Source: a virus
Length of the DNA stretch: 59,504 bases
Virus record (IMG/VR): IMGVR_UViG_3300015171_000005
Span: 1 to 59,504 of that record
Reading direction: 5' to 3' (one strand)
This document shows, one piece after another, positions 1,523 to 6,973 of this stretch (positions within the stretch are counted from its first letter, which is position 1; every line of letters begins with the position of its first letter). A program made the position numbers and the translations under genes. Under the pieces are notes generated by a model that was not told where the DNA came from, ran no database searches, and worked only from the letters and a program-made list of their open reading frames with translations.

Positions 1523-1839
1523 TCTGGATGTCTCCTGTTGATGTAGATATCGATGTACTCGTCGATGATCGGGATGCCTGTGATGAATACGGGCTTCCAG
1601 ATGCATGCGATCGAGGCTTGGTACGTTGAGGTTTCGATTGTGTGAATTGTCGCTGGCATCTGCCTCCTGAGAATGAGATCGACCAAGGGGCATTCGAGTG
1701 CTTCTTCGATACGTGAATACAGGGTCTCGGGTGACATGCACAATGAATCATCCAAGTTGTAGTAGTTATCCACGTAATGGGCGAACGGTGTTCCTGCTTC
1801 GTACAGCACTTCGTTCGGATTGTCTCCGCGTTGCGGCAT
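1390..1839 (-). CDS. hypothetical protein, 149 aa, overlapping the next gene
   Basis: The ATG at 1837-1839 has CAGGAG 7 nt upstream. The first about 100 residues look like a genuine protein with mixed hydrophobic and acidic sequence. The last about 45 residues are low-complexity Ser/Arg/Lys and run 133 nt into the gene ending at 548 in another frame. The overlap is long for this genome, where 1-8 nt is usual, so either a stop codon has been lost or the basic tail is tolerated. No known family is recognised. Confidence 0.65.
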   Translation of the reverse strand: MPQRGDNPNEVLYEAGTPFAHYVDNYYNLDDSLCMSPETLYSRIEEALECPLVDLILRRQMPATIHTIETSTYQASIACIWKPVFITGIPIIDEYIDIYINRRHPEWQRNRSNASSSKPKRRTRSATSASRKPRSSKTRSTTRKSSATR

Positions 1840-1870
1840 TGATTACTCCTGTGTACGCGGTTGATCGGGT

Positions 1871-2089
1871 TCAGTACGGGTAGTCGCTTCCTTTCTCGTC
1901 GGTGAGACGGTGGGTTGGGGTGGTGATGAATGCACGGCGCACGTGATCCCAAGGCAGTTGGGATTCACCGATTGCGCCTCCGATGGGTGAGAAGAGATCG
2001 ATTGGTTGCCTGCCATGGCACGCGCATGTCATCTTGTTTGCGTCGCGAGGTGTGTTGATGATGGTTTGCTTCTGGTTGCTGGTGCTCAT
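1871..2089 (-). CDS. small hypothetical protein, 72 aa
   Basis: The start ATG (2087-2089) overlaps the stop of the preceding gene as ATGA and has AGAGGA upstream, indicating translational coupling. The sequence contains a CACHGRQ segment that could bind a metal, and a Pro/Gly-rich middle. No function is recognised. Confidence 0.7.
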   Translation of the reverse strand: MSTSNQKQTIINTPRDANKMTCACHGRQPIDLFSPIGGAIGESQLPWDHVRRAFITTPTHRLTDEKGSDYPY

Positions 2090-2274
2090 GCGATCCTCTT
2101 GATTTGAAGTACTTCGTTGGTGGTGGATTCTCCGACTTGAAGCGTTACGATCTTGGTTATCTCTGTCTCTGTCAGACCATATCTTTCAATGACATGAGTA
2201 CAGAATTCACTAAGTGTGAATCTCAATCCTTTTGCGTATCGCTTTCCAATCTTGAAGCGAATGGTGAAATACAT
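2086..2274 (-). CDS. small hypothetical protein, 62 aa
   Basis: The ATG at 2272-2274 is preceded by AGGAGA at a good distance; the frame is open further upstream but that part crosses two hairpins and is unlikely to be translated. The protein begins MYFTIRFKIGKRYAKG and carries a short helix-turn-helix-like stretch (HVIERYGLTETEITKI), which hints at nucleic-acid binding, though this is weak. Its stop overlaps the next start as ATGA. Confidence 0.7.
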   Translation of the reverse strand: MYFTIRFKIGKRYAKGLRFTLSEFCTHVIERYGLTETEITKIVTLQVGESTTNEVLQIKRIA

Positions 2275-2292
2275 GTTGTCTCCTAGAGAGGG

Positions 2293-2320
2293 CTCTGGAT
2301 GTCCGAGAGAGCATCCAGAG
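2293..2320. repeat. 9-bp inverted repeat in the leader of the 62-aa gene
   Basis: CTCTGGATG (2293-2301) and CATCCAGAG (2312-2320) form a perfect 9-bp stem with a 10-nt loop. On the minus strand it lies about 20 nt upstream of the ATG and next to the SD, so it could control translation or mRNA stability of the gene at 2274. Confidence 0.7.
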
Positions 2321-2328
2321 GAAAAACA

Positions 2329-2371
2329 AAAAGCTGAAAGGATGCAGCGCACGGGTTCACCGTGCGCTGCG
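2329..2371 (-). repeat. covarying hairpin element, copy 1
   Basis: Arms GCAGCGCACG (2344-2353) and CGTGCGCTGC (2361-2370) form a 10-bp stem with a 7-nt loop. A related copy lies at 3600-3642, where the stem differs by one compensatory pair (G-C here, A-T there). On the minus strand the hairpin is followed by a T-rich stretch, so it could act as a weak terminator or attenuator ahead of the 62-aa gene. Confidence 0.75.
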
Positions 2372-2418
2372 AGTGATTGAGTTACCTCGCTATGCAATAG
2401 ATGTTGAATGCGAGTCGT

Positions 2419-2700
2419 TCATAGCTTGCTCGTCATGTCGTACATGCCGCGCACGTATTTGCCATTCTCGCGATAGCCCCAGAGTTTGCGGCCACCGGAG
2501 AGCAGCACGGAGCACATGAGTGCGCCGACTGTTGCAGCCATGACACCGCTGAATGTGCCCCAGTGAATCAGGGTCAACAGCGTGAAGACTAGGATGTCGA
2601 TGGCTAATGGATGCGACAGCATGAACATGCGTGTACGCCATCCGCATTTGCCAAACCACATGCAGAGACCCAATGCAACCAGCAGGCCGGATTCAAGCAT
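2419..2700 (-). CDS. integral membrane protein, 93 aa
   Basis: The ATG at 2698-2700 is chosen because GGAG lies 6 nt upstream. About three hydrophobic stretches are visible: residues 4-16, roughly 30-45 and 50-68. They are followed by a charged, Tyr-rich tail ending near YVRGMYDMTSKL. The pattern fits a small inner-membrane protein. Similar proteins occur in the early regions of other podoviruses, but no function is established. A role in modifying the host envelope is only inference. Confidence 0.75.
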   Translation of the reverse strand: MLESGLLVALGLCMWFGKCGWRTRMFMLSHPLAIDILVFTLLTLIHWGTFSGVMAATVGALMCSVLLSGGRKLWGYRENGKYVRGMYDMTSKL

Positions 2701-2821
2701 TTGAATCTCCTTGATGATGGTGAATGTATTTGAAATACTTGGTTTCGTTATCGACATCGATGTCGATTGACATTTCGATGTAAGCCACCCAGAACCAGAA
2801 GATCACTTCGTTCGGGGGCAT
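2693..2821 (-). CDS. small acidic protein, 42 aa
   Basis: A short frame begins at ATG 2819-2821, just after the stop of the upstream gene, and ends 8 nt inside the next gene. It begins MPPNEVIFWFWVAYIEM, an aromatic-rich start, then turns acidic (SIDIDVDNE). Tight packing between two well-supported genes and coupling by overlap support it; the SD (GAGG, about 10 nt upstream) is only fair. Function unknown. Confidence 0.55.
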   Translation of the reverse strand: MPPNEVIFWFWVAYIEMSIDIDVDNETKYFKYIHHHQGDSNA

Positions 2822-2823
2822 GA

Positions 2824-3072
2824 TTACGCAACCTCGGCTTTGCCGGAGATTTGCGCCTTGGCGATAGCCGCAGCCTTGCGGGCGGCGTAGTCGCTGTTGG
2901 TGTTGTTGGAGTTGCTCGCTTTGCGCGCAGCATCTCGTTGCTGGCGATAGATGTTCGCCCAGTGCGCGTTATCAGCGCTGCGCTTGGTGACTTCCGCCAA
3001 TTCCACGCGGAGCGTGGCGATCTGAAGGTTGGCTTCGGCGAGTGCGGTAACGAGGGATTTGATCGTGGCCAT
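2824..3072 (-). CDS. coiled-coil small protein, 82 aa
   Basis: The ATG at 3070-3072 has AAGGAG 8 nt upstream. The protein begins MATIKSLVTALAEANLQ and shows heptad-like spacing of Leu/Ile/Ala over the first about 35 residues, then an Asn/Ser spacer and a Lys/Ala-rich helical tail. It is probably a helical oligomer. No catalytic motif is present. Confidence 0.75.
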   Translation of the reverse strand: MATIKSLVTALAEANLQIATLRVELAEVTKRSADNAHWANIYRQQRDAARKASNSNNTNSDYAARKAAAIAKAQISGKAEVA

Positions 3073-3120
3073 TATGTTCTCCTTGATGTGAATCGTGACG
3101 ATGCTTGGACTACGCATCGT

Positions 3121-3142
3121 GTTGCCCAGCACGCTGGGCAAC
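3121..3142. repeat. 10-bp inverted repeat between small genes
   Basis: GTTGCCCAGC (3121-3130) and GCTGGGCAAC (3133-3142) are perfect complements with a 2-nt centre. It lies in the gap between the genes at 3169 and 3072. No T-run follows, so it is more likely an mRNA processing or protein-binding site than a terminator. Confidence 0.65.
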
Positions 3143-3168
3143 ACGCTGCTTAGTGAGAAGCTCAGTGA

Positions 3169-3564
3169 TTAATGGACCAGCGCGCCTTCTTTGCGCGCGG
3201 CGAACCACGTGCGAGCGTTGCTGAATTTCGCTTTCGCGAAGTCGATGGCAACTTCACCGTTGTTGCACACGAACTGCACGACGGGCGTCGCTGTCGCGAG
3301 CATGAAGTACACCGCGCCGACGGTGATGAAAATCCACGCTACGAGCGTGATCCACGCAGGCATCATGAGCAGCGACACTGCCACGAGCAGGTTGCCCAGC
3401 ACCGTGCCGATGGTGTAGCCGTAGATGAAGGCGACGACGCCTTCGGCGAACATGCGCTTGAAGCTGGGGAGCTTGAGGCCCATGCTCTGCATGAGCGACT
3501 CGATGTCAGCGCCATGGAGTTCGTTGTTGATGTCATCACGTACCTGCTGCTTGGTCTTGGCCAT
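3169..3564 (-). CDS. integral membrane protein, 131 aa
   Basis: This is the first gene of the left minus-strand block. The ATG at 3562-3564 has AGGAGATAC upstream. The N-terminal 35 residues are hydrophilic, followed by about three hydrophobic segments between residues 40 and 105 (for example TIGTVLGNLLVAVSLLMM and ITLVAWIFITVGAVYFML). The tail is short and basic. This fits an inner-membrane protein. Its function is unknown; it would be expressed first from the divergent region to its right. Confidence 0.8.
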   Translation of the reverse strand: MAKTKQQVRDDINNELHGADIESLMQSMGLKLPSFKRMFAEGVVAFIYGYTIGTVLGNLLVAVSLLMMPAWITLVAWIFITVGAVYFMLATATPVVQFVCNNGEVAIDFAKAKFSNARTWFAARKEGALVH

Positions 3565-3599
3565 GTGTATCTCCTAATGAGTGATTGAGGGGAACAACA

Positions 3600-3642
3600 C
3601 AAAGCTCACAGGATGCAGCACACGGATTCATCGTGTGCTGCG
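3600..3642 (-). repeat. covarying hairpin element, copy 2
   Basis: Arms GCAGCACACG (3615-3624) and CGTGTGCTGC (3632-3641) form a 10-bp stem with loop GATTCAT. Flanks match copy 1 (AAAGCT..A..AGGATGCAGC). The stem base change and its partner both differ from copy 1, preserving pairing. It lies in the 5' leader of the leftward transcript. Confidence 0.75.
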
Positions 3643-3760
3643 GGCCCGAAGGGCCTGCTTTGGGGCCCCCTTCACCGGGAAGGAGGCGAATCCGAAGTGG
3701 GGGGTGGTTTTGGGTCGGGGGAGAGAGGGCCCCGCCTCCCCGTCACTGAGGTACCCCCTT

Positions 3761-3779
3761 AAAAAAAATTATTTTTTTT
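3761..3779. repeat. A8/T8 near-palindrome
   Basis: Eight A residues, TTA, then eight T residues form an A+T island inside a GC-rich intergenic region. It is likely curved or easily melted DNA and sits where leftward and rightward transcription diverge. It could be an UP element or part of a promoter, or serve as a hairpin terminator tail on either strand. Confidence 0.7.
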
Positions 3780-3789
3780 GTACGACGGT

Positions 3790-3809
3790 TGTACTACCGG
3801 GGTAGTACA
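3790..3809. repeat. 9-bp inverted repeat upstream of the terminase promoter
   Basis: TGTACTACC (3790-3798) and GGTAGTACA (3801-3809) pair perfectly around GG. It ends 17 nt before the -35 box of the promoter at 3826, the usual place for an activator, so it could be an operator. A run of six T follows 5 nt later, so a rightward terminator that insulates the block is an alternative. Confidence 0.65.
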
Positions 3810-3825
3810 GGAGCTTTTTTGAAAA

Positions 3826-3854
3826 TTGCAATAGGACGATGCTTACAGTATGAT
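3826..3854 (+). promoter_or_regulatory. sigma70-like promoter for the packaging genes
   Basis: TTGCAA (3826-3831) and TATGAT (3849-3854) are separated by 17 nt, the ideal spacing; the boxes match the consensus at 4/6 and 5/6. Transcription would start near 3861, about 20 nt before the ATG of the small terminase gene. This suggests host RNA polymerase transcribes the packaging and head genes. Confidence 0.6.
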
Positions 3855-3881
3855 CGGCTCAATATTTTCAACAACTTAGGC

Positions 3882-4505
3882 ATGAATCCTATAGCCGCCA
3901 AGCAATTTGCGATGCGTGCGCCCCGTAACCTTCGGACGAAGAAGGGCAAGGACGCCGTCAAGGAGATCGAAAAAGTCAGGGTGCGTGGACTGCGTGCGCA
4001 TGTCGTCGATGCGCAGAAGCTTCGCGATGTCGAGAAGAAAAACGCCGACCGTTCCCTCACCGACAAGCAGCGCCAGTTCGTGCGCTTCTGGTCTTCGGGC
4101 GAGACGCCGCGCACGGCGTCGATACTGGCGGGCTACAGCGAAGAATCGCAGAGTGTCGTGTGGCGGATGCAGAACGACCCGGCCATTCTCAAGATATACC
4201 GCGAAGAAAAAAAGCTCTACGAAGAAGCCGGGCACATGACGCGCCGTCGTGTGATGAACATGCTGGAGGAAGCCTACAACGACGCGAAGCTGCTCTCCGA
4301 ACCGGCGACCATGGTCGCGGCGGCGCGCGAGCTAGGCAAACTCTGCGGATACTACGAGCCCGACAAGCATGTGCATGTGCACATGGGCGGCAAGTTGATG
4401 GACCGCATGAATTCGCTCTCGGACGCGGAGCTTCTGAAGATCATCAACGAGCCGGAACCCGATACGGTCGAAGGTGAAGTGCTCCAACTAGAGGGCCCGA
4501 CTTGA
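3882..4505 (+). CDS. terS: terminase small subunit
   Basis: Predicted 207-residue DNA-recognition subunit of the packaging motor. Residues about 65-110 contain LTDKQRQFVRFWSSGETPR followed by AGYS, the helix-turn-helix pattern typical of Terminase_2-like small subunits. The C-terminal part is helical and acidic. It directly precedes and overlaps the large subunit gene, the usual order. The ATG at 3882 is preferred because the promoter would place the transcript start near 3861; a TTG further upstream (3789) would lie before the promoter. The SD is weak, so a later ATG at 3912 is possible. Confidence 0.85.
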   Translation: MNPIAAKQFAMRAPRNLRTKKGKDAVKEIEKVRVRGLRAHVVDAQKLRDVEKKNADRSLTDKQRQFVRFWSSGETPRTASILAGYSEESQSVVWRMQNDPAILKIYREEKKLYEEAGHMTRRRVMNMLEEAYNDAKLLSEPATMVAAARELGKLCGYYEPDKHVHVHMGGKLMDRMNSLSDAELLKIINEPEPDTVEGEVLQLEGPT

Positions 4506-6973
4506 CGACGCCCGACGAGCTTGTCGCTCGCAAGGAGCTTGCCAATCGAATCTGGGCGCGCCGCCGCTTGCTGGCGTTCATACAGCGGCTCGATCCAGCC
4601 TATCTCGCGGGTTGGGTGCATGAAGATATTTGCAGGCGGCTGGAGCGCTTCAGCGACGACGTGGCGAAGGGCTTGAGCCCGCGCCTCATGATCTTGATGC
4701 CGCCCCGGCACGGCAAGAGCCGGATCGCGTCGATGGCGTTTCCTGCGTGGCACTTGGGACGCCATCCGAATCACGAGTTCATCGCGGCCTCGTACAACGT
4801 AGGTCTAGCGATGGGGTTCTCGCGTAAGGCGCAGGCCGTCATGAACGACCCGCGCTTCCCCTTTGAAGTGAAGCTGGACCCCAATAACCAGTCGGCTGAG
4901 TCGTGGGGCTTGCAGGGCTTCACGGGCGGCTATGTGGCTGCGGGTGTCGGCGGGGGTATCACCGGCAAGGGTGCGCACATCCTCACCATCGACGACCCAA
5001 TCAAGAACGCGGAGGAAGCTGACTCGCTTACCACGCGCGAAGCCCTTTCCGAGTGGTATGGATCGACGGCGTACACGCGCTTGGCCCCCGGAGGGGGCGT
5101 GCTTTTGATTCAGTGCATGACGGGGGATACCCCTGTGCTGCTTCCTGACGGTACGGAAAAGCGGCTGGATGCTATCCGCGCTGGGGATGTGATTGCCACG
5201 TATGAGAATAGTCGAATGACTGCCGCAAGGGTAGTCGCGTGGAGAAGTAATGGTAGTGATAATATCCTGAAAATAACTACGAAGTCTGGTAAAATCGTAC
5301 GAGCTAATGGGCGGCATCCATTCTTGGCCACGACTATTACCGGAGAACTCAAATGGATCAGGGTAAGAAGCTTAAGTACAGCGAACAAAATCGTAACCGT
5401 AAAGGGCAGCGAGGAAAGTGGATCGGAGTGGTCTGCTCTGTTGAAGGGTGCGCAGTACCAGCTAGGTGCCGTGGAATGTGTCACAAGCATTACGCCCGAA
5501 AGAAGTGGGCGGACGGACACCGCCCACCATCCCATAACCCCGAAGCGCTCCGAGAGCGGCATCTCAAACACCGATATGGGATCACCGCAGAGCAGTACGC
5601 CGCGCTTCTTGCCAAACAACAAGGCGCGTGCGCCGTATGTAAGGGAGATGGGTCTAATAACCCCGGAAGATGGAAGTACCGACTCGCCGTCGATCACTGC
5701 CATGAAGGTGGAAAAGTTCGTGGATTGCTCTGCAACGATTGCAACCTCGCAATCGGACATATTAGAACTGAGCCCGTCGCACTTGCCATTGCACGGTACC
5801 TCCGACTTCACGCTGGACGAGATCGTAAGCATCGAGCCTGATGGTGAAGAAGAAGTTTTCGATGTTCAGATTGACCGAACTACAAATTTCATCGCCAACG
5901 GAGTAGTAGCGTCGAACACCTGCTGGCATGATGATGATCTCGCCGGGCGCTTGCAGCAGGCCATGCAGGCTGACTTGAACGACCCCGACGTGGATCGTTT
6001 CGAGATCGTGAAGTACCCGGCCATTGCGGAAGCCGACGAGTGGATCGATTCCGTGACCGACGAGATCGTCCGCGTCGAGACCAAGCGCGCGGTCGTGCGT
6101 GACGACATGGTGGACCCGGCAGTCTGGAGCGCGAAGCGCCCAGCGGCGGTGAACGACGCGCAGATGGAGTTGGTGAAGCAGTTGGGGTTCACGAACTACA
6201 ACCTGAAGCTTCTGCGCGTCAAGGGCGAGCCGCTCCATCCGCAGCGCTACGATCTCACCAAGCTCGCACGGATTCGCAAGGCGCTGTCGAACAGGTTCTG
6301 GTCGGCGTTGTACCAGCAGAATCCGGTGCCTGATGATGGCAGCTACTTCCTGCGCGAGCAGTTCAAGCGCGACAAGACCCCCGACAAGAACGTGTGCAAT
6401 GTGTTCTTGGCGTTTGACTTCGCCATCACCGAGAAACAGGCCAACGACTACACGGTCGGCACGGTCGGGCTTCAGGACTACGACGACACCCTGCATGTCG
6501 CCGACATGGTCCGCTTCAAGACGCAGGATTCTTCGGTGATCGTCGAAGCGATCATCACGCTCATAAAGAAATGGCGCACCACGACCTTGCGCATGGGGTT
6601 CGAGAACGGCCAGATTTTCTTGGGCCTTGAGATGACATTGAAGAAGCGCATGCGGGAAGAGCGCTTGTTCATTCCATACGAAGTGTTGCAGCCCACCACG
6701 GACAAGAAGGTGCGCGCGAGCCCTTTTCAGGCACGCATGCAGCACGGGCGCGTTGCTTTCAAGGAGGGAGCCGAGTGGTTCCCGGTCATGCAGAACGAGA
6801 TGCTGCGCTTTCCTTCGGGCATTCACGACGATATCGTGGATTCGCTCGCGTGGATGGCGCGCTTGGTCACGCAGTACGAGCCCCCACGCAAACCGACACC
6901 CAAGGCCCAGAAGTCATGGCGCGACAAGATTCCCGGCATGGGTCGGCGTAACGCCGGGCCGATGGCGGCTTAA
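4502..6973 (+). CDS. terL: terminase large subunit, interrupted by an intein
   Basis: This is the ATPase/nuclease that pumps DNA into the prohead. The precursor has 823 residues; removing the intein (residues 205-472) leaves about 555. Visible motifs are Walker A-like PPRHGKS near residue 67, Walker B LTIDDP near 163, and a coupling motif split by the intein: LIQ before it and TCWHDDDLAGRL after it. The nuclease part has FLAFDFA near 640 and GIHDDIVDSLAW near the C terminus. The start is TTG, overlapping the small-subunit stop (TTGA). The TIGR01630-like family is the best match by motif. Packaging depends on correct splicing, because the intein sits in the ATPase core. Confidence 0.93.
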   Translation: MTTPDELVARKELANRIWARRRLLAFIQRLDPAYLAGWVHEDICRRLERFSDDVAKGLSPRLMILMPPRHGKSRIASMAFPAWHLGRHPNHEFIAASYNVGLAMGFSRKAQAVMNDPRFPFEVKLDPNNQSAESWGLQGFTGGYVAAGVGGGITGKGAHILTIDDPIKNAEEADSLTTREALSEWYGSTAYTRLAPGGGVLLIQCMTGDTPVLLPDGTEKRLDAIRAGDVIATYENSRMTAARVVAWRSNGSDNILKITTKSGKIVRANGRHPFLATTITGELKWIRVRSLSTANKIVTVKGSEESGSEWSALLKGAQYQLGAVECVTSITPERSGRTDTAHHPITPKRSESGISNTDMGSPQSSTPRFLPNNKARAPYVREMGLITPEDGSTDSPSITAMKVEKFVDCSATIATSQSDILELSPSHLPLHGTSDFTLDEIVSIEPDGEEEVFDVQIDRTTNFIANGVVASNTCWHDDDLAGRLQQAMQADLNDPDVDRFEIVKYPAIAEADEWIDSVTDEIVRVETKRAVVRDDMVDPAVWSAKRPAAVNDAQMELVKQLGFTNYNLKLLRVKGEPLHPQRYDLTKLARIRKALSNRFWSALYQQNPVPDDGSYFLREQFKRDKTPDKNVCNVFLAFDFAITEKQANDYTVGTVGLQDYDDTLHVADMVRFKTQDSSVIVEAIITLIKKWRTTTLRMGFENGQIFLGLEMTLKKRMREERLFIPYEVLQPTTDKKVRASPFQARMQHGRVAFKEGAEWFPVMQNEMLRFPSGIHDDIVDSLAWMARLVTQYEPPRKPTPKAQKSWRDKIPGMGRRNAGPMAA
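5114..5917 (+). mobile_element. intein in the large terminase (268 residues)
   Basis: The intein starts at Cys205 (CMTGDTPVLLPDG, block A), has block B around TTKSGKIVRANGRHPF, and ends with blocks F and G (EVFDVQIDRTTNFIANGV then ASN). Asn472 is followed by Thr473, a valid +1 nucleophile. Removing it joins LIQ to TCWHDDDLAGRL, restoring the conserved terminase motif, so the boundaries are well supported. The penultimate residue is Ser rather than the usual His. In the terminase frame the middle (about residues 300-435) is not nuclease-like; the nuclease is encoded in another frame. Confidence 0.9.
5353..5841 (+). CDS. Endonuclease VII-like HNH homing endonuclease nested out of frame in the intein
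   Basis: A 162-residue gene lies wholly within the intein coding region, in the +2 frame relative to terminase. Its ATG has GGAG 7 nt upstream (5342-5345), so it is probably translated independently. The N-terminal part has a Cys/His cluster (C28, C33, C39, C43, H46). A second half has CAVC near 93, then LAVDHCHEGG and VRGLLCNDCNLAIGH, the signature of the recombination endonuclease VII family (PF02945). It would cut intein-free terminase alleles and drive homing. Both ends overlap parts of the intein that are needed for splicing, so the same DNA is constrained in two frames. Confidence 0.88.
   Translation: MDQGKKLKYSEQNRNRKGQRGKWIGVVCSVEGCAVPARCRGMCHKHYARKKWADGHRPPSHNPEALRERHLKHRYGITAEQYAALLAKQQGACAVCKGDGSNNPGRWKYRLAVDHCHEGGKVRGLLCNDCNLAIGHIRTEPVALAIARYLRLHAGRDRKHRA

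Follow-up and report, generated by a model that had tools for sequence, protein, structure and literature searches.

A putative Endonuclease VII-type homing endonuclease overprinted on the intein of a phage terminase gene

Introduction

Textbook inteins carry their nuclease as a domain in the intein frame, and a single polypeptide is therefore responsible for both homing and splicing. Group I introns often house free homing nuclease ORFs, and the 'fractured genes' of Dassa et al. 2009 are reportedly split inteins whose two halves are separated by a free-standing nuclease gene. Endonuclease VII (EndoVII) of phage T4 resolves Holliday junctions and has no role as a homing enzyme. The closest published precedent for the arrangement studied here is provided by the ShiLan domain and Pacc40 gp60, in which out-of-frame HNH genes occupy phage methylase inserts that have no splicing domains (PMC11855218). 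For inteins of the terminase large subunit (TerL), Kelley et al. 2016 (PMC5050341) describe in-frame LAGLIDADG nucleases in mycobacteriophages BAKA and Bethlehem and report that five TerL inteins, including that of Chandler gp6 (TerL6-f), spliced readily in an E. coli reporter.

The element described here lies in the terL gene of the 59.5 kb IMG/VR virus record IMGVR_UViG_3300015171_000005 (59,504 nt), the whole of which is referred to as the window. A Hint splicing domain, a terminase host, a nuclease in the middle of the intein and homing (inferred for the window) are common to this element and the canonical inteins of BAKA and Bethlehem (PMC5050341). In the latter, however, the nuclease is an intein domain in the same frame, whereas that of the window would be a separate protein with its own start in another frame. 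The TerL6-f inteins of the B3/B4 mycobacteriophages (Chandler gp6) are members of a homologous family and have the C-motif site, splicing and the nested EndoVII frame in common with the window's element; no mention of a nested nuclease was found in the main-text passages of PMC5050341 that were searched. The ShiLan and Pacc40 gp60 inserts are similar in that a phage-gene insert is open in the host frame and holds a nuclease in another frame, but they are not predicted to be removed from the host protein and encode HNH rather than EndoVII enzymes; the ShiLan nuclease has a GTG start and no recognisable ribosome site. The window cannot be assigned to the ShiLan type, which has no splicing domain in the host frame, because it has a full Hint domain. 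Independent translation of the nuclease would be a likeness to group I introns with free homing-endonuclease ORFs, but these are removed at the RNA level and the window lacks an intron signature (Rfam, to E 1). In split inteins, as here, a separate nuclease gene lies between the intein halves, but the host gene and intein are split there and form one continuous frame here. The nested nuclease core has its fold and Zn/His-Me signature in common with T4 EndoVII. All the parts are known families and the arrangement is absent from the accessible literature, although a 2025 preprint on actinophage intein "non-canonical architecture" from the ShiLan group may cover inteins. The earlier note on this DNA knew of no described example; this is only partly safe, since out-of-frame HNH genes are known from the non-intein methylase inserts (PMC11855218) and the 2025 preprint may describe cases in inteins.

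Results

The terL gene and its intein

The terL ORF encodes 823 aa without interruption, and its exact start codon is unsettled. The ORF that precedes terL (3789-4505) may encode the small terminase subunit, and its end shares 4 bases with the earliest potential TerL start. The intein is inserted at the TerL C-motif, between LLIQ and TCWHDD (Table 1). It matched PF14890 (E 2e-16) and exceeded the curated cut-offs of TIGR01445 and TIGR01443. The residues expected of a Cys1-type intein (C1, N65, H68 and N268) were all invariant in the intein alignment, as was the sequence VFD..T.NFIAN...N in the Hint C-part; the +1 residue was Thr in the window and in TerL C-motif loci. Almost no conserved columns were present between residues 100 and 229. 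According to AF2 modelling, a confidently predicted Hint domain is formed by the two intein ends (pLDDT >90 in most blocks), and disorder is predicted where the nuclease core is coded. The top Foldseek matches of the model were the Ssp DnaB mini-intein 6frg (E 2.6e-9) and NpuDnaB 4o1r. Only intein/Hint models were matched in the intein frame, which, unlike that of a canonical nuclease-bearing intein, has no nuclease domain. The 268-aa intein that had been read from the sequence, with its splicing blocks and clean boundaries, was confirmed by the intact Hint domain, the PF14890 and TIGR matches and the relatives that are empty at the exact junction. The penultimate intein residue is Ser in the window (5912-5914; ASN/T) and His in nearly all relatives. 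A minus-strand ORF of 240 codons (5110-5832) spans most of the intein, likely as an effect of composition; it was rejected as a gene, being unconserved and with stops in the antisense frames of most relatives.

Table 1. Positions of the terL, intein and nested nuclease features (window coordinates unless a locus is named)
Feature	Position	Strand	Evidence or remark
TerL precursor (extein + intein)	4502-6973	+	PHROG 38 E 4e-95, Terminase_6N, Terminase_6C, TIGR01630
Intein, 268 codons, Cys1...Asn268, +1 Thr	5114-5917	+	PF14890, TIGR01445, TIGR01443; 35-row alignment
Hint N-part, residues 1-99, including Cys1 and block B N65-x-x-H68	5114-5410	+	AF2 pLDDT about 84-96 per block
Intein residues 100-229, unconserved, predicted disordered; nuclease core in other frame	5411-5800	+	AF2 pLDDT about 30-64
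Hint C-part, residues 230-268, blocks F and G, end ASN/T	5801-5917	+	AF2 pLDDT 92-97
Predicted ribosome-binding site GGAG of nested gene; GGA encodes invariant intein Gly77	5342-5345	+	
Nested putative homing-endonuclease gene, 162 aa + stop, +2 (-1) frame relative to intein	5353-5841	+	PF02945 E 1.2e-20
Endonuclease VII (His-Me finger) domain	5557-5805	+	PF02945, nuclease residues 69-151
L148 intein with nested +1-frame HNH-like nuclease	3183-3947		
L152 intein with nested +1-frame HNH-like nuclease	1777-2658		PF13392 E 2.7e-6
L256-L260, L273, L278, L279, L281, L282, L283, L286, L298, L308 (from 1186), nested +1-frame HNH-like			Mostly near TerL Walker B
L265, LAGLIDADG_2 nested in +1 frame of intein	2766-3584		E 6.7e-36
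L289, LAGLIDADG_2 nested in +1 frame of intein	2730-3953		E 3.6e-38

The nested Endonuclease VII gene

The presence of a complete EndoVII-like gene with its own GGAG and ATG in the +2 frame, as the earlier note had proposed, was upheld by the PF02945 match, and several EndoVII PHROGs were matched as well. The nested protein has the two CxxC Zn pairs and the DH...N motif that define EndoVII/His-Me enzymes; the Zn cysteines C93, C96, C127 and C130, together with D114-H115 and N131, were invariant in 37/37 aligned nuclease copies. Its AF2 model reached a pLDDT of 82, and T4 EndoVII came out on top of both the sequence-profile and the fold searches, the fold E-values being modest. The nested ATG overlaps the TGG codon of the invariant intein residue Trp81 (5354-5356). 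The nuclease had also been said to overlap sequence needed for splicing at both ends; such an overlap is present but modest, since only about 20 codons at the 5' edge and 13 at the 3' edge lie over the confidently folded Hint domain and are truly under double constraint. Many nested genes of the L009-L057 type encode, at the N-terminus, a zinc-finger-like repeat (about 40 aa) for which the window's nuclease has no counterpart, and the nested gene of L163 has one further such repeat in an open frame of 260 codons.

Family and distribution

The same nested gene was found at 143 loci, which formed 91 clusters at 80% nt identity; the search for homologues in phage terminases that had been suggested was thereby answered. 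With the intein protein as query, 61 loci were retrieved from IMG/VR and the nuclease occupied the same relative frame in 56/61 (L046, the nuclease core of which is deleted, is included). The remaining five comprised two loci cut by contig ends (L056, L059) and three with inteins of other types. The search with a nuclease alignment gave 80 loci, of which 73 were classified, with intein-frame stops in 0/73; 66 of them passed the full motif test and 7 were without a motif, some by a contig end inside the element. A single nuclease protein used as query against viral contigs recovered two loci only. The genome search added 12 more bacterial or MAG contigs with EndoVII-family inteins; prophage or MAG contigs with this layout included Nonomuraea, Mycolicibacterium (M. 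vanbaalenii) and Bradyrhizobium. Among cultured phages the layout was present in 36 Gordonia and Mycobacterium/Mycolicibacterium records, and annotation of the nested gene was absent from all eight of the GenBank records examined. A sequencing frameshift, which would have refuted the nested arrangement, is excluded because the layout recurs in 91 clusters from many independent contigs and isolates. Two TerL genes, L057 and L207, contain two inteins each; in L057 one holds a nested EndoVII gene and the other an in-frame LAGLIDADG-like nuclease.

Selection on the two reading frames

Across the nuclease gene, no intein-frame stop was observed in the 91 clusters, in comparison to 258.6 expected from synonymous resampling of the nuclease codons under the host gene's own codon usage. 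Together with the recurrence of the layout among the intein-query loci, this substantiates the earlier observation that both frames stay open. Shuffling within 51 genes likewise gave 68 expected stops versus 0 found. Free-standing EndoVII genes (n = 7) had 4-10 stops in the equivalent frame, and stops occurred freely in the third frame of the nested genes.

The earlier note had called for a test of selection in both frames. In the codon-position test, changes in the flanks fell on intein position 3, and changes in the core fell on position 3 of the nuclease codons, equivalent to position 2 in the intein frame. In the core of 12 close-relative pairs (not all fully independent), nuclease-synonymous substitutions numbered 337 versus 161.5 expected (P 3e-51), and intein-synonymous ones were fewer than expected (114 versus 165.8). 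The flanks of the same pairs had an excess of intein-synonymous substitutions, 195 versus 96 in the N-flank and 84 versus 31 in the C-flank. Both tests indicate that the core is constrained as a nuclease and is free as an intein except for staying open, and that the constraint in the flanks is that of the intein frame.

An NTG start was placed on the Trp81 TGG codon in 61/61 viral and phage loci checked. The first base of the start, in 60 distinct loci, was A in 48, G in 11, T in one and never C. The Gly77 codon was GGA or GGG in 53/60 distinct loci versus 132/384 other Gly codons of the N-part (P 1.4e-15). As the search that defined the 91 clusters demands an NTG start, conservation of the start codon was derived from the 61-locus and 60-locus sets only. 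The Shine-Dalgarno sequence was weak or unrecognisable in 18/91 clusters, and several starts were GTG. Judged from sequence comparison, both frames are under selection and the nuclease has a conserved independent start.

Mobility, decay and splicing

The TerL relatives retrieved with the extein were empty at the exact junction in 80/80 cases, a count that is biased towards empties, since one of the search patterns reads across the unoccupied junction. Mycobacteriophages Chandler and Philly share 99.5% identity in their terL exteins, and the intein, at its exact boundaries, is present in Chandler and missing from Philly; among the records listed, the intein was present in 14 Chandler-type terL genes and absent from about 37 near-identical ones. 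The same exact difference separates the Gordonia phages Affeca and Paries (TerL 97.2% identical), Paries being the empty one. Sporadic, exact presence or absence was observed in terL genes of both Pipefishvirus and Vividuovirus. The exteins of Affeca and Vivi2 are 96% identical, and their inteins are 83% identical over only 589 alignable bases; the greater divergence of the inteins is expected if they move independently. No intein-less near-identical relative of the window itself was found, the nearest TerLs being about 60% identical. Within 30 bases upstream of the junction, Affeca (L065) and Paries (L174) have four differences (about 2.8% overall), which could reflect co-conversion or target protection.

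Comparison of inteins with and without the nuclease, another check raised by the earlier note, revealed that the intein remains open after nuclease loss in L155 (stop), L164 (47-codon remnant, 148-aa mini-intein) and L046 (internal deletion). An intact nuclease in a broken intein was not seen, though most searches required or read through the intein. Chandler's intein, which is homologous to that of the window, has a nested nuclease with a GTG start. Splicing has been demonstrated for this homologue, gp6 (PMC5050341); for the window's intein it is inferred only.

Discussion

Proposed mechanism and alternatives

We hold with considerable confidence that the element is a mobile intein with an overprinted homing endonuclease, of which the translation of the nuclease, site-specific cleavage and homing are all inferred. 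The TerL precursor would be translated straight through in one frame, after which the Hint halves would fold together, excise the intein and rejoin TerL at the C-motif. Internal initiation at the Shine-Dalgarno sequence and start built from the Gly77 and Trp81 codons would allow the mRNA of the precursor to yield a separate EndoVII-type nuclease as well, read in the -1 frame. This free enzyme would cleave the insertion site in terL genes that lack the intein, and break repair would copy in the whole element. The computed support consists of two open and constrained frames, a conserved start, the folds, exact presence or absence, and decay of the nuclease with the intein kept. Proteomic, ribosome-profiling and cleavage data for the nested product are absent. 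The loci with a weak or unrecognisable Shine-Dalgarno sequence, the GTG starts, the penultimate Ser in place of His and the lack of a near-identical intein-less relative of the window also weigh against this reading. The earlier suggestion that a free nuclease could be made without splicing is supported, at the level of inference, by the dual-frame selection and the conserved start.

It might be argued that the nested frame is a dead nuclease relic, open merely through its overlap with the intein, and the degenerate copies L155, L164 and L046 are what such decay would look like. We regard this as highly improbable, as the purifying selection in the core is that of the nuclease frame and not of the intein frame, and the Zn and His-Me residues do not vary among the 37 aligned copies. 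Another possibility, that the centre of the intein frame is untranslated (an RNA intron or a split gene) and its openness incidental, can draw on the free homing nuclease ORFs that group I introns often carry. It is scarcely conceivable here: Rfam gave no intron match to E 1, the Hint domain is conserved and confidently modelled, intein-frame stops number 0 against the 258.6 expected while free-standing EndoVII genes do have them, and Chandler splices (PMC5050341).

Two further readings accept a functional nuclease and differ on how it is made or used. It could be produced by programmed -1 frameshifting, fused to the N-terminal half of TerL plus intein, without internal initiation; in favour of this, the nuclease frame is the -1 frame and in many loci is open for 4-30 codons upstream of the start. 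Slippery heptamers, however, occurred in only 27/61 loci, at differing positions with none conserved, whereas NTG lies on the Trp codon in all loci, a Shine-Dalgarno sequence is present in most, and a stop stands immediately upstream of the start in several (L019, L033, L049), so that we consider frameshifting very unlikely. The nuclease could also be a packaging-associated HNH protein that aids the terminase rather than a homing enzyme: the nested gene sits inside terL, and phage packaging machines are reported to include HNH proteins (work cited in PMC12613952). Yet none of the 80 retrieved TerL relatives has a nuclease at the C-motif site, near-identical mycobacteriophages exist with and without it, it decays while the intein stays, and similar nested nucleases lie in helicase inteins. 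A packaging role is possible but fits poorly because of this sporadic distribution and decay, and we give it little credence.

Under the favoured reading, a mobile intein with an overprinted homing endonuclease, splicing activity and nuclease would come as separate proteins from one DNA stretch, and the dose and timing of the nuclease could be set independently of TerL. The locus is also a case of overlapping genes with a built-in control, because selection acts on one frame in the flanks and on the other in the core. An endonuclease may be hidden out of frame in inteins that are catalogued as lacking one, and a whole class of genes is missed when phages are annotated. The Chandler/Philly pair, with and without the intein, makes homing directly testable.

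Nested nucleases in the +1 frame of other inteins

Two of the TerLs among the extein matches (L148 and L152) have inteins at a different site, close to Walker B, and these contain long ORFs nested in the +1 frame (Table 1). Nested +1-frame nucleases were also carried by relatives of these inteins and by their relatives in turn; a search for intein relatives of L265 and L152 returned nothing beyond the query or identical copies. The host proteins of this set were terminases and helicase-like proteins. Its cultured carriers were Vibrio phage CP-T1 (annotated helicase), Vibrio lentus phages and Gordonia phage Clown (terminase), in the records of which the nested gene is unannotated. The HNH types included PF01844 in L258 (E 2.9e-5) and PF13392 in L278 (E 2e-6), and several other +1-frame HNH matches were below the Pfam cut-offs. 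DUF559/Vsr-like nested genes were identified in L263 (E 4e-13) and L264 (E 5.5e-14). No intein-frame stops were present in ten loci together, versus 138.7 expected, nor in nine more loci, with 6.7 to 24.6 expected per locus. In the L306/L307 pair, 31 of the 34 core differences were at nested position 3.

The +2-frame EndoVII set and the +1-frame set together imply, on sequence grounds alone, that the nested layout very probably evolved on two or more occasions, in two frames; single and multiple origins of the +1 set were not distinguished. The four nuclease families represent three superfamilies, because EndoVII and HNH belong to the broad His-Me superfamily. We lean towards the more general reading that overprinting is an alternative housing for homing endonucleases in phage inteins, with more than one origin, and that it was overlooked because gene finders skip nested frames. 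In-frame LAGLIDADG-like motifs were recognised by eye in the L124 intein at the P-loop and in the second L057 intein, the other frames of which are closed. Zinc ribbons are present in the DUF559/Vsr-like nucleases that are encoded, in the +1 frame, within helicase-type inteins (L262, L263, L264 and L305-L307, the last three being CP-T1 and the V. lentus phages).
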